Assembly: GCF_037975245.1 (NCBI RefSeq)
Contig: NC_092575.1
Coordinates: 16,950,310 to 17,014,309 of the forward strand
Length of the DNA stretch: 64,000 nucleotides
Reading direction: 5' to 3'
DNA from: Apostichopus japonicus
Lineage: Eukaryota; Echinodermata; Holothuroidea; Aspidochirotida; Stichopodidae
Shown here in pieces: positions 2,846-49,206 of this stretch. The position numbers were made by a program, and so were the translations under genes. Positions within the stretch are counted from its first letter, which is position 1; the number at the start of each line of letters is the position of its first letter. The notes under the pieces were generated by a model. It was not told the origin of the DNA. It saw only the letters and a list, made by a program, of their open reading frames with translations, and did no database searches.

Positions 2846-4110
2846 TGGGTCATATGAACTCTAAAGACGATTTAGAAAACTCTCACGATGTGTTTTGCCG
2901 CTGGCCCGGGTCCAAAGAATACTTGACCAATTCAAATGACCACCACACTATGTAACTGGACCACGAAAAAGAAACCTTTGGGCCCTAGTCAAGACCAGCA
3001 CGCATTGGACCACCTAACCAATGGGTCATATAAACTCTAAAGACAATGTAGAAGAGTGCCATCATGCGTCTTGCCCGGTCCAAAGAGTGCTTGACCAATT
3101 CAAATGACCATTACACCGTCACTTCTTAAATGGACACAAAAGGACAACGAAAAAGCTTTGGGCCCTAATCCATCCAGTACGCCTTGGACCACCTATACAG
3201 TGGGTTATATAAATTCTAAGGACAATGTACGTAGTAGATAGAGTACCATAATGCGTCTTGCCCGGTCCAAGAGAGTTTGACCAATTTAAATGACCCTTAC
3301 ACCATCACTTCTTAAATGGATGAAAGGGGAAACGAAAGAAATGTGGGCCCTCATAAAATCCAGCACGCCTTGGACCAACTACCCCCAATCGTTAGGTGGT
3401 CCAAGGCGTGTTGGTCTTGATTAGGACCCAAATGCTTTTATTCGTTGTCCCGTTACACTAATTTAAGAATTGATGATGTAGTGGCCATTTGAATTGGTCA
3501 AGCACTCTTTGAACCGGGCAAGACGCATTATTGTACTCTTCTTTATTTTCCTGAGAGTGTATGTTACACATTGATTAGGTGGTCCAAGACGTGCTGGTCA
3601 TGATTAGGGCCCACAGCTTTTTCGTTGTCCCGTTACACTAATTTAAGAAGTGATGATTTAGTGGTCATTTAAATTGGTCAAGTACTGTTTCGACCGGGCA
3701 AGACGCATATGGTACTCTTCTAAATTGTCCTTACAGTTCGTGTTAACCATCGGTTTGGTGATCCAAGGCGTGCTGGATGGATTAGGGCCTTAAGCTTTTT
3801 CGTGGTCCCGTTACATTTATTTCAAAAGTGATGATGTAGTGGTCATTTAAATTAGTCAAGCACTCTTTGGACCGGGCAAGACGCACTATGGTACTCTTCT
3901 ACATTGTCATAAGAGTTCATATGATCCATCGGTTTGGTGGTCCAAAGCGTGCTGGATGGATTAAGGCCCAAAGTTGTTCGTGGTCCCGTTACATCCATCT
4001 TATAATTGATGGTGTAGTGGTCATGTGAATTAGTCAAGCACTGCATAGACCTGGGAAGACGCATTGTGGTAATTTCTACTTTGCCTTCAGAGTTCATATG
4101 ACCCATCATT
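2846..4110. repeat. Inverted tandem array of about 175-bp units
   Basis: About three direct copies of a unit of roughly 175 bp start near 2846, 3020 and 3197. Each begins with TGGGTCATAT or a close variant and contains GACCAATTCAAATGACC and TTGGACCACC. From about 3390 the same unit continues in the opposite orientation for about four more copies up to about 4110, for example GGTCATTTGAATTGGTCAAG near 3483. The centre of symmetry is near 3380-3400. The array has no convincing coding content and ends just upstream of the putative first exon of the TBC-like gene. Confidence 0.75.
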
Positions 4111-4335
4111 GATAAAACCTCATTATCTTTGGAAAAATACGCTAAAATGTACTTTTTCGACGAAAAAATCTTGATAATCTCGTACGGAAGCATTCGGCTT
4201 TCCATAGTTGTATGTCGAATCCATTATCGAATAACAGTAACATGTGTGCTACAGTTACTTTTATTCGCGAATGTCGAACGAGGAACGCGGAATAAGTAAC
4301 TAACTTCACACCGGTGTCCGATCATATCGACCCAA

Positions 4336-7300
4336 ATGGAGTCTGTCTCACCACCAGAATGGTTAACAAGGAGTAAACAAGCCTTGCTTAAGAGTCAGGT
4401 ATCGAAGAGAATTAATTCATTTCAAAATTGTATTGATAAGCAAACCATATCGTGGGCTAGTAGTTACAAGTCACATCGCAGTTTTGTGCCAAAACTACCA
4501 CTGAACCAGGCCGTGAAAGAGGCTTCACCCATTCCCTAGATACCTAATAACCTACTTAGGCCGGAAAATATGACGCAAGGTTTCCTAGACAACAGCATGC
4601 TATTTTCAGCCCGTTGAATGATTTGTAGCAGCAGTAAATATTTCTGATAACGTTTATAAACCCCCTAACCTTTCACTCGCTTACGTTTTATGCGCTTCAA
4701 CAATTGTCTACATATGCAATCAACTTTAACAACTTGTTAATTGTAATTAAGCCTGGGCTATAGCCTAGGCTTAGCTGGCCCTAAACTGAAGGTACAATAC
4801 TGGTGGCTAGCACTAACTCAACTGACTAGCTATACAACAAAGGTAGTATAGTCAGTATTGCGAAGTTCGGCATACTGCGAAGTTCAGACACCCTAAAAAA
4901 TACACGATTTTACCATGAAATCCTACAGGAAGAGCCAAATTTCAGCAAAAAGTACGAAGCTACAATTATTTTCTCTCCAAAATGACCGTGTGCAAGAAAG
5001 TACTTACATATTTGTCAATAAAATGACGGAGATCTATGAAGTATGTTATAATTACTGAAAGAGCAACTGCGCCACCAATTTTATCACCAGCGCCACACAG
5101 TGGGTTGGGTGTCCGAACTTGGCAATACTCTATCAAAGAAATACCAGTTCCACAATCAAGAAGAATCTTCTTGGAATACAACGTGAAAACAGTTTGCAGG
5201 AAAGAAAGTTTGGCCGTGTATCGTACTATAACAAATTTCTCCCACCAAATCAAGTATATTTTCAGGTGATTTATCATAGAAGATTTAGTTTTGGGGTGTT
5301 TTAAGGCTTAGGTGTCCGAACTTCGAAGTGACCATGCTACTACTAGATCTATAATATGCTGGTAGAATGTCATAAGGTGACCTATGTTTTGCAAGAATTC
5401 CGGAAACATGATGTTGACTCCACCCCCACCCCCCCCCTTCCACATAGGCCATGAAGTTGTCAGTACCTTGACAGTACGTGTAAAAGGCATTGAAGACTCG
5501 CCCCAAACTGCGCGCATGAGGCCATCTGAAAAAGTTAACTTTCTGTTTCTTGCAATTGACGCTACAAAATGCAGATAGTAATGAATTGGATACCTTGTTA
5601 TTTTTAGCTGGACCTGAGATATCCATCGCTGTAACGTTTGTACACTGTGCTGTGGGTATTGACCGCAGCTGTATGTACTGACTGTACACTAGTGTGTAAT
5701 TACCAACGGTAGCAAGCTGTGTGTGTATTTTCTGGGATCGATGGTGGTGTTTAGCACTTATGTTACACCTCATTCGAAACTAGGTCAAATTACCGGCATC
5801 AGACCTTCGAGTCTTCACACCCTTTAAAGGGAGGGGTGACATTTTGAGGATCTCTCAAGTATTTTGGTGGTTCTAGGCCTAGATGTCAAATTCAAACCAC
5901 TTATTCTTAATTGCAGTTTTACTCGACAGAGCCTTGACAAAAACAGTTATATTTGCAACAGTGAAGGAAGAAAACATCCATTTTTTTTTGTGGCACTTAA
6001 AAGAATTATTTCAATTATTTTACTATAATTTTGCTGTAAACTTAAAATGCAAACGTAAGTTTGGTAAATTTTACCTTGCTTAGAGCACTGCTACTCGAGA
6101 ACTTTAGTTATATAAATCTATAGCATTCAAATGAAATCAAACTGTTAATCAAAGCCACATAGATAAAGGAAGGAACTAAATTAGAGAGCAAATCAGAGAG
6201 ATTTGGATTATGGCTGCCCTATAGTAGAACATTTTTGCTCTTAGAATTGCAAATTGACCATTGAAAGATATTGTTAACATGAATCAGTCAAGATGAGAAT
6301 CATGTTTCAGTATACATTATAAGCTTCTGCAACAGGACTGATTTTTGGCATAAAATTTCATTTCAGGAATGGCAAGAGTTTCAAGATCAACTGACAGCAG
6401 CAGTGGACCATCACCTTACAGAAGTTCAGCTTGATAACTTTAGAGATCTTTCAGAAGAAGCAAAAAGAAGCTTATTGCAGAATGCACTGCAATCCGTTCA
6501 TCAAGGTATTAGTGACATTGATCGTTCAAATTATGAAATGCTTCAGTCACTTTGAATTTTGAAGATTTTACCCATTGTCAAATAAAGTTGCCCTAACTGT
6601 TAAATATCTAGTCTTTGCCATGTCTTAACAACATGTAGGGCCTTCACCTTTACTTACGTAGTATGACAAAATATTGATGAAATTGTGTGCAATTTCTTGG
6701 GAATTACCTTCGCTAAAAGTGGTGCAGGTTTGATACAGTACCTATACTGCAGTACAGTCTCTAGAATGCATTGAAGTTCATTTGTGTGACATTGATTCAG
6801 CTATAAATAATAGAAATATATATGTAACCAGACTGTACAATGCCAATGGGCTAGAATAATTTGGGCACATTTCTTTCGTTCTTTCCATTGAACAAGTTAA
6901 CAGACTTTGAGTTGATATATAGAATGTAAATGTTTAAAGGCATTGAAGACTCGCCCCAAACCGCATGCGGCCATCTGAAAAAGTAAACTTTCCGTTGCTT
7001 GCAAGTGACGTTTTGTTCGTGTCGCTACAAAATGCAGACAGTAATGAAATGTGATACCTTGTTATCTTTTATCTAGACCTGAGATGTCCATCACTGCTAT
7101 GCACACTGAGTTGTGGGTATTGACCTTAGCTGCATGTACTGACTGTGCACTAGTGTCTAATTACAGACGGTAGCAAGCTGTGTGTGTATTATCTGGGATC
7201 GATGGTGGTGTCTTATACTTCTGTTACACCTCATTCGAAACTAGGTCAGATTACCGGCAAGAGACGTTTCTTTGTGTGCGAGTCTTCACACCCTTTAAAT

Positions 7301-10300
7301 GTCAAGGTCATACACATATTAACCAATGACCGTACTAGCTATTACTTTACTATCAACTCTGAATAAGCTCTGATTGTACATAAATTACATTGTGAGGTTC
7401 GCTTGAATGTGATTTTGCAATTCATGTTTTTATGGTACTGAAAAATGTTCAGTTTTTAGTACAGTTTTTCTAAAACTTGCTTAAACAAGAATAACAAAAC
7501 TAATTTTAAAATGGACACAGAGCTATGTATTGTCACATTGGCATGAGTATTGGAGTGTGGTATTAATGAGAGAGCAAGGGAGAGGATATTAGGGAGTTAC
7601 TTGCCTACTTCCATAGTGCTGAAATATTAATGATAGTATTAAGATTAGTACTGGGTATCAACATATAAATAGTTTGTAAAAAACTTGTTTATATATCTGT
7701 CACCCACAAAGTGACTCCCACAAAGCATAAATTTCCATTGCAGTTGTTATTTCAGTACACTTGCTGCAATGAAAACTGTCATCCTAAATCTTGTTTTGCA
7801 GGCGGCAGCTATGCAAGAATCTCAGCACGCGTTTCCGAAATCATTGCAGAACACATTCACTTGAACAGGAAATATCATGTCGATACTATGACAACACCGG
7901 AATGGGCGAGTTTGCAGACTCAGGCCAATGCAGGGTTGCTTCACTTGCTGCAGAAATGGCCAGATCTGAAGAGCAAGTTGTATAGATGTTTCAATATACA
8001 GCTGCCCCAGTCACTCAGGAGGCTAGTGTGGAGTCTGTACCTAGAGAATCCACAAGGTTTGCTCACATCCTCTGATTCTATTGAACAATTCTCATTGCAA
8101 CAAGAGGCCAGCGACACTATGAGGGTGACAAATTATGCTTTCCTATCCCTAAAAAAAAAAAAATTTGTTTGCCTTCTGTCACCATCAGGGTACTTGTAGA
8201 TTATTTCCCAATCTTTTTTTATCATTCGACCAAAATCCTCCCTACGCCAAGTATAAAATTTAGATTTAGTAACATTGAACTTTTCTAGTTTTATTTCATG
8301 ACTTGTAGTTAACTTTGAATGTTTATGCCAATAAACTACATTGGTATGTGGAAAGGCATTGGGAAAATATCCATTACTGAGACAAAAATATCTATATGAG
8401 GTCTTTATGTATTCACACTTGTTGTATATTATATGCTTGACTATATACTGGAGAGAATCTGCTGAATCTCCAAATGGTCACAGATTTTGTCAATTTTAAC
8501 CGTCCATGAAATTGGACATCTTGACTGAGCTCTCTCATTCTGTGTCTTACAGTAGTTAAAGAAGTGTGTATTATGTTAAAGATCTGCTTTATTGGCTCCA
8601 ATTATAGCAAGCTATAGCTAGGAAAGTTTTGTGATTACGTAATCAACCTGCCACGGTCGTAAATCGACCTCTGGGCTTAACAATTAGCCTACATAGCTTC
8701 TTAACACCATTAGGCTCTTTGTGTAAACACTGTTTGGAAATATGTTCATGTCTACAGTGTAGTTAATCATACTGCATTCACACAAAGACCCTCATATCAG
8801 CAAAAATATATGGCAGGCGTTGCAGACTTATTGGTAAAAAGAGGTCATTTTACGACTTAGGCTTGTCGATAACGTAATCTCCAAGAAACTTTTCCATGAT
8901 AGCGTGCTATAGTTGGGGTCTGCACAGCAGACCTTTAATATATTGTACTCTGTTCAAATGCTATTGAGGAAGTGTTTTGTGAAGAAAATCTAGGTACAAA
9001 GAAATAAATGAAAAGCAAAGCAGTATCTTTCAGTTTTATTAATGGTATCGTACAGAGCAAAAGAAACTTTGGGCTAGAATGGGATTCCCAGTATGCTTTC
9101 CATTGTTCATTTACTTTATGTATTTATTAAAGGTTTTTAATATTTGCTTTGTTTTAATGCTTTTCTACATTTTCAGTAGGTTCATCGAAGATGTAGTAGA
9201 TACATGCAAAAGATTAATTTCAGTTATAAATATTTTCATGATTGTATGCAAACTTTTCCGGTTAAAAATTTTTTTACATAATAAACTTGTTTTCTCTTCA
9301 CAGTGAAAACAAAATATTTAGAGAAATTTCGCCAAAACCCAGAAAGCACCATGTCTTTGCTTGATCTTGAGATTGTCAAGAACTGTGATCATTTGCTGCA
9401 AACTGAGCAGACTCTACAACCGCTTAAAACTTTTTCAAGTAAGTTGAACATGTGAAACATTTGATTTTAAAAGAAATGTCTGGTAGTCCTTAGAAGTTAC
9501 CATAATAAACGATAAACATTTTTCAAAACATGTTTTTAAAGTATGAGTAATGAGTATGAGTAATATTGCGTTTGACAGAGAAATTATGTTTTAATCGTTT
9601 AGGATGGATATTTCAAATATACTTTGAACAGTAGAGAACGTGAAGTCATCTGGGCAAATGCAGATTGCGACATAACCCACGCTGTATACAGTTCCTACAG
9701 TAATCAACAACAAAAACAACCGCATTTGAATACAGATTAATTTCTTCCTTAATTTTGGGTGAAATTTCATATAAATTAGATTGGTTTTAAACAATCGTTA
9801 AGCCATAATATATGTAGTGCATCAGTGATTTTGTGAGTTTTGTGTAATACAGTGAAGTTTGAACAGCTGACTCTTAAGATAATGGTTGCCATGGTCTTGT
9901 GGCTCCTTTCAGAATGACTTTCTTTTAAGAATGTCATGCCTCACTCTTTCACTCTCTTATAAACTTCCTTTCAAAATTGACAGAAAGTCTTCACCTGATG
10001 AAAGCTGTTCTGTCGTATTACCACGTGACGTTGCAGACTAGCTCTAGCATCATTGCATCAGACTACATGCTGGCATTACCTTTTGTCTATGTTACCCTAG
10101 CAACCAATCCAAGCACATCTCTGAAGGTTGCAGATACGGCTACCACGATAGAACAGTTCATGACCTTCATGGAGTGCCGACCTGTTTACATGAAGGAATC
10201 TTACACCACGGTATATATATATATAGATGTTAATCAACATTTGAACCACATTTCTAATCACTCTCTCAACTTCCACAGACCATAGCATTGAAATTATAAC

Positions 10301-13300
10301 TACAGCTACTCAGTCCGGACTGAAGATTCAACTTTATTTGACATACCTCTATTCACAATGCACTCTTTATACTATTGTGTGCTAATGTGGTTCAGATGTT
10401 GATTAAGTAAACATAGGGGTCTACATAGCATATAGCAAAGTCTGTATATATATATATATGCAGAATGCAATTGCTTCAGCCTTGCTATAACTAAGCATAT
10501 GCCTATGCAATAAGTTGGAGAGTGATACATCTGGTTGTACGTACAGAGTCGATGCCTTTAAATGATATGTCCGTAAAGATACAGCATCAGTATGACTGCT
10601 CCTTTAAAAGGTGCATGTACCACTCATATCACAAGTGACAGTTAATAATAGTGCTTAAAGCACACTATGTTATATATACTTCATATCTATCATCCTACTA
10701 TCATCCGAGTATGTTCGCCTTTCAGAGGATACCTGCACTTGATTAGTATTTTTGGGATAACGAATGGAAAAAAGATTAAAACTTGCAAAGATATCATGAT
10801 AGGTCATGGAAAAAATATGGTTTTTAGTATTGGAAAAGAATCAATAAGTATTGGTTAATATTGCTATCTGTGAATCCTATGCTGGCTTAGATCTCAGAGA
10901 GTCTCCATCAGCTAAAATTTGAACAATTTACTGATCGCCTAATCAGTTCAATTAAATTCAGGATTTATTTATTCTTAAATGTATACAAAAATAAGTACAG
11001 CTGTGCTTGGTTTACTAAATTATTACAGTATCAAGAACACATGATGGACACTAGCGAAACAGGTTTTAATGTGTCGAAGCTAGTGGCCATTAGAAAAAAT
11101 ATAGTGGAAAAGAGAAAGTACAAAAAAATGTAAAGAAAAACAAATGTTCATGAAAAGTCGTGTGAAAATGTAACATCTATAACAATCGATAGGGGGCTGT
11201 TGATTAATGCAGCAAGGGTACCAACCAGGAATGAATCCAGTGTGTGGGACTGGCGTCTTTAAAGCCAATTTCCATGTTGAGGGGTCTGGCATTTTCCAGC
11301 CCCCCCCCCCCCCACCCACTCATCCCCAATAGACCAAATAAATAATAATTTATGTGAAATAATGCCTACTGAGTCATATTTGGGCTATAATTTAGGTCCA
11401 CATGGAAGCTTGTGGTAATAAGTACATATAATTCTTTGTGTGATGTTGAAAGGGGTGAGGGGGGGGTTGGTGTACACCCCCCCCACTCAACACCCTTCCT
11501 CTAGATCCACACCTGCAGACATTTTGAGATTACCTTAAAGGAAACTGCGAGAGTAAGTAGCAAAGTGTTGTATACTGCTAGGGAGGTTATGCAAGATGTT
11601 ATAGGAATATCTGGCTTAATAACAATCTACTCTTAACTATTCTGTGCTGCAGTTGTTAAACACAGTTTGACTTGAATTTTTACATGTGAATATCTTTTAT
11701 TTTCAAAAAATATCTATCATGCACAGTTACAAGCATGTACCATCTCTCTGATGAATACAGTTGAAGCATGCTGGTAGGAAGTTACAGCAATTTTTTTTTA
11801 TACCTTGCCAGTGGCAAAAGGAACTTATTATGATGAACAAGAGAGTTCTGTTAATTGTGAAATGTTTTGTTTTCCTATGTTTAGGAGTTTGAAGCTGTTT
11901 GGACTGAATTTACTGACAAAGTCATCTCCAGATTGGGAGCAGCTGATGAAGATTTGCTGGGACATGTAAAAGCCATTTTGGATAAAGGTATCCCTTTCTC
12001 AAACGATTTCATTTTGAAATTGATCAATTGATACAGTAAAGATTATTAAGCTGATGCATAATAGGGTAATTGCTTATAAAACCATGAAAATTGATTGAAA
12101 TATTTTTAGTAGTTTAGCACTGATGTGTCTCATGAAATGTGTCTCTGGTGTCTCGTGATCATCAGATTTTCAGTGATAGATTTTCACTCGGTCACAAGGC
12201 TTTGGCTTGACGCTCGATCTGTAAACCTCAGGTTTGGTGGTGACTATTATAGCATTTATCGTATAGTGTGTGATACTGCATATTGTACATAATCAATCCA
12301 CTCACACCATTCCAAGGACTGCTTTTTTTCCTTTTTGGACTGGAGATGCTCTTGTCCTCCAACTTAAGTACTTGATAGGTTTCTGCTTAAGTCAATCAGC
12401 TGCTGTCAATTTATCTGCTTGAATGTAATTGGCAAGTAAAAAGAAACATAGAAATGTCACCTATGTTCAAATGTGTTGGTAGCCCTCACAGAGAACAACA
12501 TACAAATGAAGACAATCCTGTCTAGTTAAGACTACTAGTTATTTTTTGTTTTTCAAAAAACAAGGTGGTGCCTTGGCCTTGGCCTTAAATAAGACTGTAA
12601 ACGTTCAACTTGACCTTTATCAAAAGTATTAGAAAATTCCAGTATTATTGCCTACTCCAACCCCAAATTGCTGAATTCCATTTCATTTTTAAGGAGTTTT
12701 ATATAACATTTCATTTTTAATCCTTGTTCAGATTCTCCAGCAGAGAGCTTTGCAGAGAAGATGAAAACAGTGACCAGACCTATGGTCCGCTCTATGTTTG
12801 TTGGTAAGCTAACAGTGACCAGACCTATGGTCCGCTCTATGTTTGTTGGTAAGCTAACAGTGATCAGACCTATGGTCCGCTCTATGCTTGTTGGTAAGCT
12901 AACAGTGATCAGACCTATGGTCCGCTCTATGTTTGTTGGTAAGCTAACAGTGATCAGACCTATGGTCCGCTCTATGTTTGTTGGTAAGCTAACAGTGACC
13001 AGACCTATGGTCCGCTCTGCGTTTGTTGGTAAGCTAACAGTGATCAGACCTATGGTCCGCTCCATGTTTGTTGGTAAGCTAACAGTGATCAGACCTATGG
13101 TCCGCTCCATGTTTGTTGGTAAGCTAACAGTGATCAGACCTATGGTCCGCTCCATGATTGTTGGTAAGCTAACAGTGATCAGACCTATGGTCCGCTCTAT
13201 GTTTGTTGGTAAGCTAACAGTGATCAGACCTATGGTTCGCTCTATGTTTGTTGGTAAGCTAACAGTGATCAGACCTATGGTCCGCTCTATGTTTGTTGGT

Positions 13301-16300
13301 AAGCTGATAGTGATCAGACCTATGGTCCGCTCTATGTTTCTTAGTAAGCTGACAGTGATCAGACCAATGGTCCGCTCTATGTTTGTTGGTAAGCTAACAG
13401 TGATCAGACCTATGGTCCGCTCTATGTTTGTTGTTAAGCTAACAGTGATCAGACCAATGGTCCGCTCTATGTTTGTTGGTAAGCTAACAGTGATCAGACC
13501 TATGGTCCGCTCTATGTTTGTTGGTAAGCTAACAGTGATCAGACCTATGGTCCGCTCTGCGTTTGTTGGTAAGCTAATTGCAACAATGAACTTCACAGAA
13601 TGAACAAAAGCGAAGACATTAAATTTTGTAAACTTTGGGCAGCGAGTATGCAGGGTCTAGTTGTGATGGGATATTTCAACGTAACAAATAGACAATAAAT
13701 GTATATGCTTGCAGAAGCCCTTTTATATTTCCCATATAATAATAGTAATAATAACTAGTCTTATATAGTGCATACTCCAACAAAAGTTGTTCAATGCGCT
13801 CTACGGGTGCTGAATGTGCAAAGACTAATAGAGTTGAGAGAAAAGAAAAGTTTTAAGACAGCGCTTGAATTGAATAACAGAATCTAAAGACCTAATTCCA
13901 ACCGGGAGGGAGTTCCATATAATATGTTTCCATTTTGTGTCGATGCTCGCTCATTGGTTACAAAATGTCACTTTGGCTCAATTCCGATATTCGTTTCATA
14001 TGTCCATTACTGTGCCTCTGTAGCATATGCTGCTGGATCATGTATCACATGGAATGTAACTACAAAGTAGGCACATCTTTTATGGTAATCATAAAATTTG
14101 ATAAAAAATTGAAGTATTTGTATGAACTTATCAGTCTTTTTTGTTTTGTTCTAGGATATCTCTCTCTGGATTCGGTCTTATTTGTTTGGGATCAGTATTT
14201 GATTGGATTGGATGCACCAAACTATGACATCATACCTGTCATAACAGCCTTGACTATTTCTCTATTGAGACTACAGGTCCTGCAATGTCAAACAGTAAGT
14301 CATAAAAAAAGAGATTTAAAAAATTTAAAAAGTAAGTTATGTACAGTGTGAAATATCTTGCTGCATATACTGTCCAAAACACGGTAGCAATGTTTTACAC
14401 TTGTAAAACATAACTGGAAAGATCCATACAGCAATGTTTTTTTTTCAACCATAACTTAACTGCAACAATGAACTTCACAGACTATACAAAAAAAAAGTCA
14501 TTAAATTTTGATAACTTTGGCCAGTTTTGTTGGTCAAAATTAAAAGTCTTAACTAAAAGTCTTAAAAATTGACATTAATGTACAAAAAGGAATTGTGTAA
14601 AATGGTATCTTTCAAAAGTGTGTCATCAATAAATTTGATTTGTTGATTTTTTTTTTATTATTTACTTTTTTTGGTTGGGTGGGTCGGTGGGTGGGATTAT
14701 GGCAGTTTTCTTGAAAAGTTATTTTCATGGGTGGGTACATAATTCTTACATGACACTTAAAGTTAATATATAAACTATACTTACAGTGTATAACTCTCTT
14801 CCAAGACATGGCACAGGAATGGAACAACACAAATCTGACCATCATAGCCCATCCATGCCATGTTGTAAACTTTATACAACAAAACTATCACCAACCAAAT
14901 GACTCAGTCTTTTGTGTAGGTTTCAATATTAATATTGTTGGAGATGCTATCAAGCTTAGTTGTGAAAAAATAGCTTCAAAAGTCGGTGATGTGCAATACA
15001 ACCCACTGAGTTAAAAATAATAATAATTATTATAATTACAATCGCATCTAAGAATTTTTTGGTTGTAAATTCCAGATCATTTCAAACTTCTCAAGTTTTT
15101 TAATAATTTTATGTTGTTTGTTTTGTGTTATTTATTAATGCATGACAGGCAGAGGAAATCTCAAGTTGCTTAAAGAGGGATGGAAATAAACTGAAGAAAG
15201 AATTTTACATGTATGAGGTAAGGTACTAGGGAATTGATATTTTATGAAAAGTAGTTTTCAATGCTGATGATTTTTTTATAGCTGTAATTTTGGTTTCAAG
15301 ATTATTTCAATGTTCAAAATTTTACTACATTTCGGATGTCATCCATGGACGTTACTACTATGATCATTGCATGTCTTTGTGTCATAATTAGTAGAATTTA
15401 TGTTCAATCTGATTAGAATTTTATCTTTTGACCTGGACTGAGGAGTCCGTTGTCATCATCGATTTAGCTCCAAAGAGGCAGATCAGACATGAAGCATTCA
15501 CGGCTCCATTTTGAGAAATTTGTGTTGCAATTGAAAATGTCTTATTTGAGGTCATAAAAGTATGAATTTTGTGTTGCATTTGGAGGAACTCATCTTATCT
15601 TATAATTTGTGTACTAAACTAAGTCGTCTAACCAGTTAAAATACTCTCCCACCACCACCACCATTCCTGCTGGAAAATATATTAGAATTATAATGTTCTC
15701 TGGGATTTAAATTACAGGTCAGTTCAATCAATACAAAACTGAAATGGACATGTCAACTGCTTTAACAATCTGATTTTTGATCATTTTGTCATTTCTTCAA
15801 ATTTTGTCTTCTTTATGTAATATTTTCTCTCTTTTTTTTTTTCATTGGATTTTACAGATCAATAGAAATTTTCATCAAGATCTCAATACTTCCTTGAACA
15901 GCAGACCAGTGTTAGATTCCCAAAATTGTAAGTTGGCTTTCAATTTTGCATTTATTTTCATCTTGTTCAATGTGATATTATTTCTGTATTGTAGTCTGTA
16001 TCTTCTCACCCCCACCATACTCTTCCCATTAAGTCCAGCTTTTGACTAATTCAAGGATTCATTTGAAAAGACGCATTCCATGGTGGTAGTGCAGGTTTTT
16101 TTCTTGATAAACTCCACCTCACCTCCCCAACCCACATAGAATCAAACCAACACAGATAGTACAAACTTCACTGTTTTCAGATTGAAACATAAAGTAACTG
16201 TCCTAGAAGCAGCACTGTGAGCTAAAATGTATTGCCCAGCCATCTCATACTTTTCTTAACATTTTTGAAGTAAAAAACCTTTATAGAGATTAATGATGAG

Positions 16301-17714
16301 CTTCAAAACTCCTGGGCCTCAATTGTGCTTCAGATTTGCGGCTGACATCAAAATTAATTGGACATATCCGTGACATGTCGGTAGTAGATACAGAGGTATT
16401 TTTATGTTAATTCTTCTTTACACAAAAGTGTCAGTTCTTTAAGGTGATTTTCTATTTTGCATAATTTTATAGATCCAATGCCTTGGAATGTCAATGTTCC
16501 AGCATCAGATGTGGATTCCTCCGTGAACAGAGAAAATATCAGGTTGAAGGATCTACTTGAGAAGGTAACATAGTACCCTGCCACCCCCCCCCCCCTCCGG
16601 CCCCCCACTTATACCACTGGATCGATCTTTGTATAATTTGATGTATGGCAACACAGAAATTTAATATTTAAATTCTTAACTTTCTCCTTTGTCACTGAAA
16701 CTGTTCGCCTTTAAAAACCAAAACATAAAAATAAGCAAAAATGCTTCAATGAAACATTTGGATACATTGATGTTGCAGTTGATGATACATTGATGTAGCA
16801 TCAAGTTGAAATTTATGAAATGGATATTTCAAAGATATGACAATGCTAACATGTCTAAGACGGATAACAGAGAACCATTAAACCTATTATGTCCAAGTTC
16901 CCTGTTCCTGCTCTGATTCTGTGACTGAGATATATACGATACCGAAATTTAGTCACTTGAGTTGGGAAAAGACACTTTTCAATTTGTAATCACTGTTGGC
17001 ACATCCATACTTCACCAGCAACTTTCAAGGGGTTCTACTTTTGTATTCTTCAAGAAGAATAGTTGAGATGTAAACTTGTATTTGGGATGTAAACAGAGGA
17101 ATTATCTAAAGATCATGGTACCGTCTTTCTCTCAATTCCTATTTTCTGTTCTCAATATTCTGATAGTGTCTTCATCTGTAGTAAAAGTGAAATATCAAGC
17201 AGATATGTTGTCAAAGACTAAAAATTTATACCTATGAGATATTCTTTTGAACTTAAAATGCTAATATCTTTGAAACTATTCTAGCAATTTGTGTCGTTGT
17301 TTTTGCTTGGTTAGATGTGAACAAGTTCAATACTTCACCAGAACTAAACGTTGCAAATCGTTAACAGATTCTAAATTTACAGACAAAATTGAAGAGTAAG
17401 AGAGGAGGAGATTTCAACGTAATTTATTCCTACGAAATTATTTCTCAAGTCTCTCGAAACAAACGCTTGAATCTGTTGCATTAATCTTTAGGAATCCAGG
17501 AAGAGACAGGAGGTAGAAGAGAGGTATACTACAGGCATGAAAGAGATGAAGGAAGAATTAAATCAGTTGAGGAAACTGATAGAGAAAGACGAAGATGCCA
17601 AGGTATGTTGATAGACGATGGTCGGACTGGATGCGATAGTGTAGCACATAGGCCATTAGGCTGCAGCCTCTGAAGGAACAAAAGAAAAAGAAGAGAATAA
17701 ATATATATATATGT

Positions 17715-17797
<83 letters not shown>

Positions 17798-18832
17798 AAT
17801 ATATATATGATATATATTGCCCCAAATGTTGACACTATTACAATGTATTATAAATTGATCAAAGGCAAACGATATTTGATTTCATATTTTGAACTTATGT
17901 CGTGTGTGCAGATGTAAGTAAAAGAAATTCTTATGATAAAGTGTCATTAGAATTTACAAAATGATGGATTGACAGTAGACCTTGCAAAAAAGGCCTGTTA
18001 AAGGTGGAGCTTAGTTATGCATGCATTCCCTGCAGTCAGATTTGCCTCTTATTGGACTTACTGGAATTAAGTCAATGTTTGAAATAATTTGCTGCTGTAA
18101 CCTTGCTATTTAATATGCATAAAAAACAAAGGCAAATCACAGCATCTTTGCCTCCAAGGGTAACTTTATACCATATGTATATGTTGATATTGATCAACAT
18201 ACTAGAATTTTTTGACATCTGTTTTCATTTTCAATATCTTCCCATGATAAAGGTATGTTGAAGTGTTTGGAATGTTCATTTAAGGCAAATCTCTGCTTCT
18301 GGTTTAAGATCTAGTTGTTATTGTCAACTCCATCATCACGAAATAGGTTTGAACAAATCCTTCTAGGTTTAATAGTCCTACCCTGTGTCTGAAGTCCTGT
18401 TAAAACATGCTTAAGATCATGTAACACCATGGGCCGGATGGAATCAGATTAAAACAAGGTTTGGCCATCAGCAGGGTTTTCCTATCTCACCTTTAGAGTT
18501 TTTTTAGCTATTTTTCTGTCATCTTTTCTATTTGTATGAAATGTTTACACTTACCTTAAATGTCACATGGGTTAAAGGTAGATCACCTTTAATGTCAGAA
18601 AATTAACATAAACAAGTTTTGTCGAGTAGTTCATTGTCTGCATAGAGAGGATAATTTTGTTTTAAAACTTTCAATAACAGGTCACAATATGTAACATTAT
18701 TATGTCACCTAGAAATATGATTTGTGTAAAATACTTTCCTAAATTGTAGCATGTTTTTCATTTCTTTCAAACCCACAGAATGAAAATGACATTCTTCATC
18801 AACCTAGCACATCTTACTCTGGTCCGCAATAA
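4336..18832 (+). CDS. Degenerate TBC-domain (Rab-GAP-fold) protein with C-terminal coiled coil
   Basis: Thirteen coding exons join in one frame: 4336-4398 (putative start exon), 6367-6505, 7802-8056, 9304-9438, 9984-10210, 11885-11987, 12732-12803 (alternative end up to 13568), 14155-14294, 15149-15217, 15858-15927, 16473-16564, 17492-17602 and 18779-18832. All have AG/GT borders and matching phases. The shortest product is 509 residues. TBC signatures seen: [10 protein letters not shown] near residue 140 (motif A, after an LPQS turn) and [19 protein letters not shown] near 325-345, which resembles the distal TBC subdomain of TBC1D19. The arginine-finger region is [11 protein letters not shown] (about 172) instead of IxxDxxR, and the YxQ region is [10 protein letters not shown] (about 222), so both catalytic residues appear to be missing. 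Residues about 440-492 are charged, heptad-like coiled coil. A pseudo-GAP or scaffold role in membrane traffic is inference. The TAA stop lies inside an AATAAA at 18828-18833. The first exon is the least certain; the rest is well supported. Confidence 0.8.
5481..5827 (+). mobile_element. MITE with TTAA-type ends, copy 1 (degraded)
   Basis: Same family as the copies at 6934, 34187 and 54157. The left end reads AAAGGCATTGAAGACTCGCC and the right end GAGTCTTCACACCCTTTAA, which are imperfect inverted repeats. The TTAA is intact on the right but changed to TAAA on the left. The interior is non-coding and shares GGGATCGATGGTGGTGT and CATTCGAAACTAGGTCA with the other copies. It lies in the first intron of the TBC-like gene. 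Confidence 0.75.
6934..7298 (+). mobile_element. MITE with TTAA-type ends, copy 2
   Basis: Starts TTAAAGGCATTGAAGACTCG and ends AGTCTTCACACCCTTTAA. The termini are inverted repeats bounded by TTAA on both sides, the target used by piggyBac-type transposases. It is about 365 bp long and has no transposase. It sits in the intron between the exons at 6367-6505 and 7802-8056. Confidence 0.8.
12767..13576 (+). repeat. 45-bp minisatellite built from an exon end plus its splice donor, about 18 copies
   Basis: The array begins inside the coding exon that starts at 12732 (acceptor TTGTTCAG). Each unit is 45 bp: about 33 bases of exon ending TTTGTTG, then GTAAGCTAACAG. The first donor is at 12804 and the last, same phase, at 13569. 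Either joins in frame to the exon at 14155. Translation stays open through all 18 units, each giving a 15-residue block containing [10 protein letters not shown]. Copies differ by a few bases (MF, ML, AF and MI variants). One copy, near 13430, has lost its GT (TTGTTAAGC); another, near 13337, has TTAGTAAGC. The array may be intronic, or it may extend the TBC domain by up to 255 residues if a distal donor is used. Confidence 0.9.
13579..14521 (+). repeat. Direct repeat pair of about 60 bp bracketing intronic sequence
   Basis: GCAACAATGAACTTCACAGA followed by an A-rich stretch and CATTAAATTTTG occurs at about 13581-13641 and again at about 14463-14521. The second copy is downstream of the exon at 14155-14294, so the pair brackets that exon. 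The first copy directly abuts the 45-bp minisatellite. Confidence 0.65.
13735..13930. repeat. Probable dispersed repeat with AATAAT-rich head
   Basis: Starts with AATAATAGTAATAATAAC, then TCTTATATAGTGCATACTCC and GTTCAATGCGCTCTAC, and ends near GGGAGGGAGTTCCATATAAT. This layout (triplet-rich end, TTATATAG core, GGAGTTCC end) is typical of short interspersed elements in marine invertebrates, recalled from general knowledge. No second copy was found in the window. Confidence 0.35.
17699..17815. repeat. (TA)n microsatellite
   Basis: Nearly uninterrupted alternating TA with a few GTATA and AAATATA interruptions, within the last intron of the TBC-like gene. The open frames across it are artefacts of the repeat. 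Confidence 0.95.
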
Positions 18833-23853: not shown

Positions 23854-38641
<14,788 letters not shown>

Positions 38642-43300: not shown

Positions 43301-46300
43301 TACTCTAATTGTGGTGCGGTACCTTCATATATATGGGTAAACCACTGTTGCATAACATCGAGATAAGACCAACTATTGTTACCAGAACATATAAGTACTG
43401 ATTCGGAAGATTAGTGATGTAACTGGCTCACGCGGAGCAGACCTTGCCCTTCTCAGCCTAAAACGATGAAACTAATAGCTAAAAGATATCAATAAAAACA
43501 AAACAAACGAAAAACAAGGGCAACAACGTCGCAGAAGCTCAGCAAAGCTTCTATATACATTTGAGAAATTTCTTTCGATTGGCAATATTTCTGAGCAGTT
43601 TATCCATTTGTTTGTGGACAAAATATAAGACTTCAGCGGATTAACATTTATCATTTCCTTTCCTTCCATTTGCTTTTTTCTTGCCCTATTATCCTTCTTA
43701 GCAGACAGAGTTAGAAAGTTGTAAACATTTGTTTTACAAAAGAAGACGTAAAAGATAAATGTATATATTTTCATTGATATATATAGTGTAAAAGTCAGTG
43801 GGCCTGATGTTTCGATCCTAGCAGGATCTCCTTCAGAGGCTAAAGCTACTGTAACAGCCTCTGAAGAAGATCCTGCTAGGATCGAAACGTCAGGCTCACA
43901 TGAAAGACTTTTGTAACATTTTCCCGGAATGGAATGATTTCAAGGGTTGTTAGCCCAAATTACCGTAGGGCATAGGCGTAGGAGGCGGCGGAGGGGGGGG
44001 GGGGCTGGGGGCTGCAGCCCCCAACGAAAAATTGTTTTGGAAAATTCAGGCAATATGCTGGGAATTTTCGGGCACCTATACTGAAAGAAAAATAATTTGC
44101 AATGTGTTTTTCAATGGTTAAACTTATATTATTATGATCATTATTATTGTAACGACTTCCCCAATAATTATAACCAATATGGAACGGTAATAACACGGAA
44201 AATGATTGTATGTTATTGGCATGCGATGTCATAACCGATGCATGCCTATACGATATGCACATTAACATGTCCGCGCGAAAAAAATTGGTTATAATTTTCG
44301 GGCAAGTCGTTACAGCCCCCCCCCTCCCCTCCCCAATCGAATTGGGCTTCTACGCCTTTGCTGTAGGGTGTATACCAACCGCCCCTTGTTAGTCCCCGAA
44401 ACATTTCCCCGAGATTGTCGTATTCCGGAAAATTCCTTCAAAGTGGAAACACTGTCACGAACTTATTTTATGCACTGAATAGATCGTTGTACTTATTACT
44501 AGGGATAAACTATGCCCCATTGCAAAAATAAGGAAACAACAGTTTATGCACTTCGTGACTTTTCATTCATCATGCAATAATTAGAACGAAAACGTAAAAA
44601 AAAAAAAAAATTTGTTTGAAAAACAAATTTCATGATCATTTTAGATGATCTGTAGTCTACATTTCATCACAAATGAAAACTCTACATAAGGCCCTGTTTT
44701 GGGCACTCACTCGACGACAAAATATTTTTCCTAAACAACTTTGGTTCGACACCATTCGAACGTGATATACACAACATTTCAGCAAATTTGGACAGACGCT
44801 GTATAGGAGTAGCATTTTTTACGTTTCCATGAAATGACCTCTCGTGACTTCAAATGATTCTCAAATTTTAATTTATTTGCGCATGTATGAAAACTTAACT
44901 CTCACAAAACACTTACGAAATTTAAGCCAAATCGAATGAAAAAATTGACGAAATGGAAACACGGGAAACACGGTGGCAAAAAGTAAGACAATTTTGGCAC
45001 GATCGCCCAGTTGAAAGGTTTCAACTGAGCCAGCTAAAGGTTATTATCTGATCTACAAATAGAGAGAGAGAGATAAAGATACGTAAACGAATGAAAAGAT
45101 AGCTCAGTCGTTCCCACTGTACCTGTTGGGCAAATATCTGATTTGTGACGTCACGATTAATATACTAGATAACTTCCTGCCAGAACGTCTTTCATCACAT
45201 TAGTAAACAAACATACTTCTCCTTTCTAAATGTTTGCTTCGATCGTATGGAAAGCCGTTTTAACATTTAATAAGGAATTTCAGATATCTCGAAATAATTT
45301 CAGATATCTCAAATTAAATTACAGATATCTCCAATTTATTTAAGATATCTAAAAATAATTGCAGATATCTTAAAATCAATTTCAGATATCTCGAAATACC
45401 AGGGAATTTCAGATATCTGAAATTGAATTCGAGATATCTCGAATTCAATTTCAGATATCTCGAATTCAATTTCAGATATCTGAAATAGAATTTTGGATAT
45501 CTCGAATTCAATTTCAGATATCTCGAATTCAATTTCAGATATCTGAAATAAAATTTCAGATATCTCGAATTCATTTTCAGATATCTCGAATTCAATTTCA
45601 GATATCTGAAATAGAATTTTAGATATCTCGAATTCAATTTCAGATATCTCAAATTCAATTACAGATTTCTGAAATTTCCCGATTAAATGTTAAAATGGCT
45701 TTCCATACGTGCCATTTAACATTTAATCGGGAATTTATGCATATGCATTTCAGATATCTCGAATTCAATTGCAGATATCTCGAATTCAATTTCAGATATC
45801 TCGAATTAGAATTGCAGATATCTTGAATTCAATTTCAGATATCTCGAATTCAATTTCAGATATCTCGAATTCAATTTCAGATATCTGAAATAGAATTTCA
45901 GATATCTCGAATTCAATTTCGGATATCTCGAATTCAATTTCAGATATCTCGAATTCAATTTCAGATATCTGAAATAGAATTTTGGATATCTCGAATTCAA
46001 TTTCAGATATCTCGAATTCAATTTCAGATATCTGAAATAAAATTTCAGATATCTCGAATTCATTTTCAGATATCTCGAATTCAATTTCAGATATCTGAAA
46101 TAGAATTTTAGATATCTCGAATTCAATTTCAGATATCTCAAATTCAATTACAGATTTCTGAAATTTCCCGATTAAATGTTAAAATGGCTTTCCATACGTG
46201 CCATTTAACATTTAATCGGGAATTTATGCATATGCATTTCAGATATCTCGAATTCAATTTCAGATATCTCGAATTCAATTTCAGATATCTCGAATTAGAA

Positions 46301-49206
46301 TTGCAGATATCTTGAATTCAATTTCAGATATCTCGAATTCAATTTCAGATATCTCGAATTCAATTTCAGATATCTGAAATAGAATTTCAGATATCTCGAA
46401 TTCAATTTCGGATATCTCGAATTCAATTTCAGATATCTTGAATTGAATTTCAGATATCTGAATTAGAATTTCAGATATCTCGAAATCTATTTTAGATATC
46501 TCGAATTCAATTTCAGATATCTCGAATTCAATTTCAGATATCTGAATTAGAATTTCAGATATCTCGAAATGTATTTTAGATATCTCGAATTCAATTTCAG
46601 ATATCTTAAATAAGAAACAATTTCAGATATCTAAAATTCCCGATTAAATGTTAAAATGGCTTTCCATACGATCGAGCAAATAAGCTTGTACGAAATACCC
46701 CAGCTGTGATGTTTAGAACAAACATCCATACCGGTTATTTTTATCATGGAATGTCTGGAACAGCACTATTTCACTTAGACGTGTATGTAATCAGTATGTA
46801 TTCAGTAGCAATATCTTATCCATGCAGGGTAGAAAATGCGATTACAAAAACAAATACCTCAGCTCTGTATCAGTACGATATATATAGACTTTAAACCCTA
46901 GTTAGGCCTATGCATTAAATCACGACTGCCCAACAGTATCTCATTGATACAATATTTGTGTTGTAAAATAGCACACGATCATGAAGATGTACTTTGTAGA
47001 AAAATATCAGACAATATAACATCGCCTTTGTTTACCCAAGACATTGATTGGACGCATGCGCGGACAGATGTGTTGGCCATTCCGCACGTCCGTAACTATT
47101 CATAAGACTGTGTGCTGGACAAAACGTGTTTTATCCAATTGCTGACGTATGGCTGCCACCATTATCATTGATATTACTTTATGCCGCCCCATCCCCTTTC
47201 TAACTCTTTCTCACTCTCAAGTAACGTTTCTGTGGCAGACCAAGCCATTCAAAGGACATATTTCACGTATACCCCAAGTCAATAGTTCAGCTATAAATGT
47301 CCACTGTGTAGCCTACATAGCCTGTGCTAGATTCTAAAATGCCCAGAGTCAGAGTACAAGTCCACAAGGGAGAGTTTGAATATACATCAGTCAACCTGGC
47401 TAGAATTCGACTCGGAGAATGAACACGCCGACTCACAATAAGTCTGACTCAAGCAGTTTTGGCAAGCTGTCAGTGTACACTCTGTTGATGCGTTTTAAAA
47501 ATGATCGTTATTCAGTGTAAGTTCTTGTTTAAAAGCTTGTTTCTGTTGCTGTAAAATTGCAAGGTTCATTGAAATTCTGTTTCTGTGGCCTGGCCTTTTA
47601 CTTAATCAGCGGTCACTGCACCCGGAGTAAACTCGCGTCCCATGAATGGTAGAAAATAGTGAGCCAACACATATAGTTACCCTGCTAGGTGATAACATTA
47701 GACAAGCATAATTAACATGATTTGAGTATACTATAACTGTGGGTTAATTCCATGTTATAAGTCACACATATTTGGTTGTACAATCGAACATTTCTTCTTG
47801 TTCTCTTCAGATTTGGCCGTTAAGAGTCCAAACATCTCACTTCTCAAGTTAATGCTGAATCCACTGTTCGCTAGCTGTACTATGTTCTACAACCACGATA
47901 CCTTCTACGAACGCTACGAAAATATGACATTTGGTTCGTTTGTGTCCTTTTTAGTTTATTATTGTATTTTCACCTTTTTTTTATTTTCTCATTGTATGAC
48001 GTAAACAATTTAAATATTAAACGAAAACAACCATTCGAAAAGTAGATTCTAAGTACTAGATAATTACAATTGCTTACGTGAATTGCTGTACGCCAATACA
48101 TGTGGTCAAAGTCTTGAGTGAAAAGTTGTACGTTTACCAAAAAAATAATATAATCATACAAAAAAGTAATAATAATTACACCACAGCAATCGGCGGCGAA
48201 GCCGAGGCCACATGGTCGGAAAACTCCTCTGCCCCAATATTGTGAAACAGTTTGTCTCAACGTTTTTGTTAACTTTGTGGTTTGCCCTTGTACCCAGAGT
48301 TTCTGACCCCCCTCCCCCATCCCACCTCATCCAGATTCAACCTCTTCCGCCGCTACTGAAACAGACATTGCTATTATTCTTTATGGTCTTATGACGAAAG
48401 AAGTCTAAATATACAGTAACCTCTAATATATTATCAGCAGATTTTGTTTCCTGTTTGAATTCTTTTACATGTTCTTTTACATAATACATCAGAAAGACAA
48501 ACATATTGCTCTTTTACAATTTTTCCAGTAGGCTGATTCTTGTTTATTGTCCAATGTCTGGACTTTAATACATTTGACGAACTTAACTGATGGACAATAT
48601 AAACTTTCATATTTTGTTATATAGCCAGATATGCAGTGGCCTAAAAACAAATATCGTTATTGCAGTGTATTAGCAGTAAATATTTATAGGAAGTGCGTAT
48701 CACGTACGATTGCTAGCTTAGCTTCATTACATGCTGTTCGTGCAACAACTTAGGACGAATCATAGAAAGGATGAGAACGAACGTTGTCGACGTTGTTGTG
48801 CATACGGTTCGTGATATTCCATAGAGTGCGGTTAGGTAGGCCATATGTATTTCATTACGCAGTGGCCAACTGTAGGCTTGTAATAGGCTATAGGCTAAAG
48901 TTAGCTAATTGCATCTGCCAAACTAAGTAAGAAATTGAATCAGTAGGCGTGAATGTTACTACAATTATAATCGAGTTAACGGAGCTGACAGTATTCAAGA
49001 TCAAAAGAGCACTGACAAAATACCATGCTAAAAAAACGACAGTTTTGAAACATTTTTTTCGACACTGAAAGGGGGGAGCAGTCGCTCCCCTGCTCCCCCC
49101 CCCCTGGCTACGTCCCATACCTCTATTCAAGTTGTTTGCATAAACGACTACGTTCTGTCGTCCATCTAACAGCATACGTTCTCTTGGCTCCTTGTAATGC
49201 CAGGAT

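Follow-up and report, generated by a model that had tools for sequence, protein, structure and literature searches.

In human IFI6 (6-16, G1P3), whose minisatellite with multiple splice donors was described by Turri, Cuin and Porter (1995, cited in PMC4526556), two downstream repeat units act as extra donors and three mRNAs are made, with the form of 130 amino acids (aa) predominating (PMC4526556). Internal tandem repeats at the exon-intron boundaries of human paralogs alter both splicing and coding sequence (PMC2812944), and the splice sites of human UBC are dual-specific AGGT motifs, serving as donor and acceptor, at 228-nt intervals (PMC10809524). In potato RdRp, duplication of the acceptor side gave rise to a new intron, and the fission-yeast 24-bp arrays cited in the same paper have units that carry AGGT and introns that span several units (PMC4974935). 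Here we describe an array that appears, by its anatomy, to be of the IFI6 kind. It lies in a window of 64,000 nucleotides of the sea cucumber Apostichopus japonicus (assembly GCF_037975245.1, contig NC_092575.1, positions 16,950,310 to 17,014,309 of the forward strand; coordinates below are those of the window), where the end of one exon and its splice donor are repeated in a 45-bp unit within a putative gene of 13 exons. The reading we favour, with somewhat better than even confidence, is that of a neutral minisatellite lying across an exon-intron border, in which the first donor is mainly used and the next ones occasionally.

Tandem Repeats Finder (TRF) places the array at 12766-13577 on the forward strand, with a 45-bp period, 18.0 copies, 95% matches and 0% indels, in agreement with the roughly 18 copies of 45 bp that a first-pass annotation, made from the letters of the window, had counted. 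An array of this kind could not arise by chance. Each copy consists of about 33 bases of exon end followed by 12 bases of intron start, and the most frequent unit, in codon register and with a solidus at the splice border, reads ACA GTG ATC AGA CCT ATG GTC CGC TCT ATG TTT GTT G/GT AAG CTA, corresponding to a 15-aa peptide. Unit 1 contains the exon end and adjoins the unique portion of exon 7, unit 18 continues into unique intron (GTAAGCTAATTGC), and none of the 18 units contains an in-frame stop. Some variants tell units apart: GTGACC is carried by units 1, 2 and 6, and CTCTGCG by units 6 and 18. In the gene model the array spans the donor of exon 7, and the proposal that an exon end was amplified together with its donor is supported.

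The gene model (4336-18832, forward strand, as are all its parts) was built by hand with borders picked to preserve the frame, and comprises 13 exons and 12 GT-AG introns, the first and last exons being the least certain. Exon 6 (11885-11987) ends in phase 1 and is spliced to exon 7, which starts at 12732, the exon start given in the first-pass annotation, at the acceptor TTGTTCAG/ATTC. Read to its first donor (TTG/GTAAGC), exon 7 spans 12732-12803, is 72 nt long, has phase 1 at both ends and is in frame with exons 6 and 8. Exon 8 (14155-14294, TTGTTCTAG/GATATC) is the common acceptor exon. The first donor follows 12803 and the last follows 13568, so that intron 7 measures 1351 bp from the former and 586 bp from the latter (13569-14154). 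The product is 509 aa via the first donor and 764 aa via the last, with no internal stop, which reproduces the range of lengths annotated earlier. Searched against the genome, the protein has 13 matches with E no higher than 1, and every one of them falls inside this gene.

The donor GT is kept in one phase in 17 of the 18 units, a count that agrees with the earlier one, and in the gene model each of these 17 donors would indeed keep the reading frame if spliced to the exon at 14155. The sequence TTG/GTAAGC recurs in 16 of 18 units; unit 13 has TTA/GTAAGC, with its GT kept, and unit 15 has TTG/TTAAGC, being the only unit without a donor GT (13434-13435, forward strand). By a simple match count, the 16 common donors agree with CAG/GTAAGT at six of nine positions, and the other 11 donors of the model at five to eight. 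We infer that splicing most likely relies mainly on the first donor, which yields a 72-nt exon of ordinary size, because 72 nt fits the range of the other internal exons listed (69-255 nt) whereas the 837 nt of an exon 7 with the full array does not. The next few donors would probably be used at low frequency and lengthen the product by 15, 30 or more residues, with the remaining copies acting as intron. The array may have been tolerated because its stop-free unit has a length divisible by three, so that splicing errors would keep the frame.

The substitutions among units bear on neutrality. With unit 1 taken as ancestral and shared changes counted as one event (which assumes that they spread by duplication), there are 13 distinct substitutions relative to unit 1, comprising nine non-synonymous and four synonymous changes and no stops. 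The expectation without constraint, obtained from all single changes of the consensus with transitions weighted two to one, is that 72% of changes are non-synonymous, 27% synonymous and 1% stops; the donor GT would receive 4.4% of them. The probability of at least nine non-synonymous changes in 13 is 0.74 at a ratio of non-synonymous to synonymous rates (dN/dS) of 1, 0.29 at 0.5, 0.07 at 0.3 and 0.013 at 0.2. Two of the changes, both in one codon, always co-occur; when they are merged, the probability of at least eight non-synonymous changes in 12 is 0.80, 0.37, 0.11 and 0.026 at the same four ratios. The substitution pattern thus fits an expectation near neutrality, the repeated peptide is unlikely to be under strong purifying selection, and the loss of one donor GT in 13 events is as neutrality predicts (at most one such loss has a chance P of 0.89). 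Among the options raised in the first-pass annotation, that the array could be neutral is the one this pattern fits best.

The absence of stops is uninformative, because zero stops has a chance P of 0.87 and an antisense frame is open as well. One of the three antisense frames runs open across the array, and the open frame was therefore ruled out as evidence of selection; a period divisible by three has a prior of about 1/3. Selection on the array was not shown, with no sign of it in substitutions or in donor loss. The antisense open reading frame itself (334 aa, 12652-13656, minus strand) spans the whole array and is taken as a by-product of the repeat.

Several points weigh against a neutral array spliced mainly at its first donor. 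Donor strength gives no preference among the units, because 16 of the 18 donors are identical, and equal donors can favour the intron-proximal one. That 18 copies contain no indel argues mildly for frame-keeping, and with only 13 events a dN/dS of 0.3 to 0.5 is not excluded (P = 0.07 and 0.29). In addition, SRSF1 promotes the use of intron-proximal donors and hnRNP A1 that of intron-distal ones (PMC5585400), so that donor choice can shift either way and usage could move toward the last unit.

The action of SRSF1 and a preference for the intron-proximal of equal donors would also suit a reading that we consider unlikely, though worth weighing, in which the distal donors, those closest to the acceptor, are used and the array is mostly or wholly coding, adding up to 255 residues of a 15-aa basic-hydrophobic repeat. 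It would agree with the stop-free frame of all units and with the lack of indels. Its amino-acid changes, however, have accumulated at about the neutral rate, and the 837-nt exon would be 3.3 times as long as the longest of the model's other internal exons. An AlphaFold prediction for the array frame alone returned one long helix (predicted local distance difference test score, pLDDT, 68; predicted template modelling score, pTM, 0.19), which, as a single-sequence prediction, says nothing either way.

The near-identity of the donors, 17 in one phase and 16 of them alike over nine bases, suggests another outcome, in which several donors are used at comparable rates and produce a ladder of isoforms, with a copy number that differs among individuals and with either a variable-length protein or a splicing-competition device as the result. 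Minisatellites are usually polymorphic in copy number. Human UBC offers a parallel, as its array of splice sites yields a stochastic ladder (PMC10809524), yet its authors report neither tissue-specific nor feedback regulation, and at the present locus there is no sign of selection for keeping either the donors or the peptide. We regard such a ladder as doubtful. Equally doubtful is its more specific form, in which the array would be an adjustable length element whose 17 equal donors compete to give a graded protein ladder in 15-residue steps at a single point, with array length varying between individuals.

The first-pass annotation had also placed CTAAC and AG in every unit and read them as branch- and acceptor-like signals. 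This is not exact: of the 18 units, 15 contain CTAAC, 17 have the AG in this position and 14 carry an exact GTAAGCTAACAG. The acceptor looks poor as well. At the one unit border scored, the frame-keeping CAG after CTAAC is preceded by a tract of 50% pyrimidine, as against a mean of 72% (range 56-89%) in the 12 acceptors of the model, and the next AG lies seven bases upstream, as against 20-135 bases in the model acceptors; the branch-like A stands about three bases from the AG. The other two AGs of the unit have 39% and 61% pyrimidine and both break the frame; the latter, with its previous AG 31 bases away, is nearer to the real acceptors. These values argue against splicing within the array, in which a donor would be joined to the AG of a unit farther downstream and by which in-frame pieces of 45n+12 nt would be removed. 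The AG after CTAAC does preserve the frame, lying 102 nt from the donor at 12803 to the scored AG, and the other donor-AG pairs are equally in frame because the period is 45. Nevertheless, with the better AG breaking the frame and with no AGGT anywhere within 12766-13577, we hold splicing of this type to be highly improbable.

RNA structure offered no clear gain over shuffled sequences when two units, three units, or exon 7 with the first unit border were folded. The folding z-scores were −1.09, −1.40 and −0.55, respectively, with 29, 19 and 61 of 200 shuffles equally good.

It is also conceivable, though very unlikely in our estimate, that exon 7 is unused or the gene model wrong, and that the array is ordinary intronic DNA. 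The open frame of the model is partly the result of construction, because the borders were picked to preserve it, and skipping of exon 7 would also preserve the frame because the exon has phase 1 at both ends. The protein is covered by no known family: Pfam gave none for the 509-aa whole at E up to 1 or for two parts of it at E up to 10. On the other hand, 13 exons and 12 GT-AG introns form a single open frame, and the joint of exons 7 and 8 is in phase.

The repeated peptide had been annotated as a helix of a TBC domain, and the hints in favour of this claim are weak. A peptide of exon 3 matched USP6NL, which we take to be a TBC protein, in the PDB at a sub-threshold E of 0.088; the whole protein matched only two PDB chains, both named C4HR1_4r, at an E of 0.2, and not USP6NL. 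The Pfam TBC family (PF00566) gave no match to the 509-aa protein at E up to 1 or to its two parts at E up to 10, in searches in which the HMMER filters drop most weak matches. A home-made profile, built from three PDB chains of the TBC1D15/17 type, Gyp1p and one TBC protein of this genome, scored the protein at a marginal 5.3 bits, with two of 500 shuffles higher (386 reported) and the gene in third place; its best stretch lies in exons 3 and 4 and not at the joint of exons 7 and 8, which stayed unmatched. From sequence comparison, a TBC assignment is therefore neither confirmed nor excluded. By eye, the exon 7-8 peptide resembles what we take to be the end of a TBC domain, perhaps of the TBC1D19 type, and if this were so the insertion point would lie near a turn between two helices.

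For the history of the array, we propose a model whereby a single 45-bp tandem duplication over the exon 7/intron 7 border was followed by growth to 18 copies, whether through slippage or through unequal exchange. A 2-bp microhomology (AA) may have served in the initial duplication, since these two bases are shared by the flanks on the left (GAAAACAG) and on the right (GCTAATTG) and by the inner junction (GCTAACAG). Mean divergence between units is 4.9% per site, and adjacent units are closer to each other than in shuffled order (1.82 versus 2.20 differences, P = 0.02), which is consistent with unequal exchange. The genome (671,581,487 bases in 35 contigs) was searched at the nucleotide level, very common words being left out, and 12732-13060 as query matched the array alone; a dispersed element as the origin of the 45-bp unit was ruled out by this match at a single place.

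The frequency of arrays in this genome may be set beside this model. TRF was run on 200 kb of sequence free of N, taken as 20 pieces of 10 kb each from ten contigs at fixed round coordinates, and returned five arrays with a period of 15-120 bp and at least five copies, one of them with at least ten copies; scaled to the genome, this small sample gives a rough figure of 3,400 to 17,000 arrays. The published HiFi assembly of Apostichopus japonicus has 671.6 Mb in 34 scaffolds, 23 chromosomes and 19,828 genes (PMC10344927). With that gene number and ten introns assumed for each gene, about 1.3% of 45-bp duplications would span a donor, and from tens to some two hundred arrays touching a donor would be roughly estimated if they are tolerated. 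A single donor-spanning array, on this rough estimate, need not be selected for.

Other repeats were observed around the array and elsewhere in the window. An intronic stretch of 68 bp (13575-13642, forward strand) starts at the right edge of the array and recurs with 84% identity inside intron 8 (14457-14524); used as a genome query, the latter copy matched these two places alone. A relaxed alignment had hinted that intron 8 retains an ancient duplicate of the exon 7 border; this was rejected, as both sides beyond the 68-bp match score no higher than shuffled sequence. Intron 7 also contains a dispersed repeat (13734-13922) with at least 39 further copies at 88-93% identity among the 40 of 200 candidates that were scored. 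Directly upstream of the gene, TRF finds two adjoining tandem arrays at 2972-3381 and 3391-4097, with units of 186 and 178 bp whose consensus sequences resemble mutual reverse complements. Farther along the window it finds a 21-bp array of about 63 copies (45276-46606) with a 489-bp higher-order period and TTTCAG in its unit, and a 371-bp unit present 2.3 times at 97% (27632-28490). The latter contains GGTTCGAATCC, which we take to resemble a tRNA-derived promoter box.

The locus offers, in nature, 17 donors that share one phase and follow each other at steps of 45 bases, with one step missing. To our knowledge, choice among many identical donors has mostly been studied with built constructs. 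The array illustrates that a minisatellite can occupy a splice site and leave the frame intact when the length of its unit is divisible by three. If the array did act as an element of adjustable length, it would be a naturally occurring system in which to study the choice of the spliceosome between identical donors.

Comparison with the described systems places the array nearest to IFI6. The IFI6 repeat unit is 12 bp, and its 130-aa form is presumably the shortest one. Both loci have a tandem array over an exon-intron border with a donor-like site in the units (GT in 17 of 18 here). They differ in that IFI6, a human interferon-induced gene, has a short unit, whereas the unit here is 45 bp long with about 33 coding bases and would add 15 residues per copy. 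The border repeats of human paralogs likewise sit on the exon-intron border (PMC2812944); unlike those cases, which concern paralogs in segmental duplications and novel introns, the genome search gives no second gene copy here and the donor side alone is repeated. With polyubiquitin UBC the array shares frame-preserving tandem units that carry splice sites, the ladder of products being UBC's (PMC10809524), but the AGGT that each UBC unit carries is absent here and the good acceptor lies outside the array. In potato RdRp and in fission yeast, as here, duplication of a border or of a short exonic segment multiplies splice signals (PMC4974935); unlike in those cases, it is the donor side that is repeated in the sea cucumber, and no good new acceptor is seen. 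Judged by anatomy, IFI6 is the closest precedent for this array.

A search of the literature on the general phenomena, none of it on this gene, found no more donor arrays.

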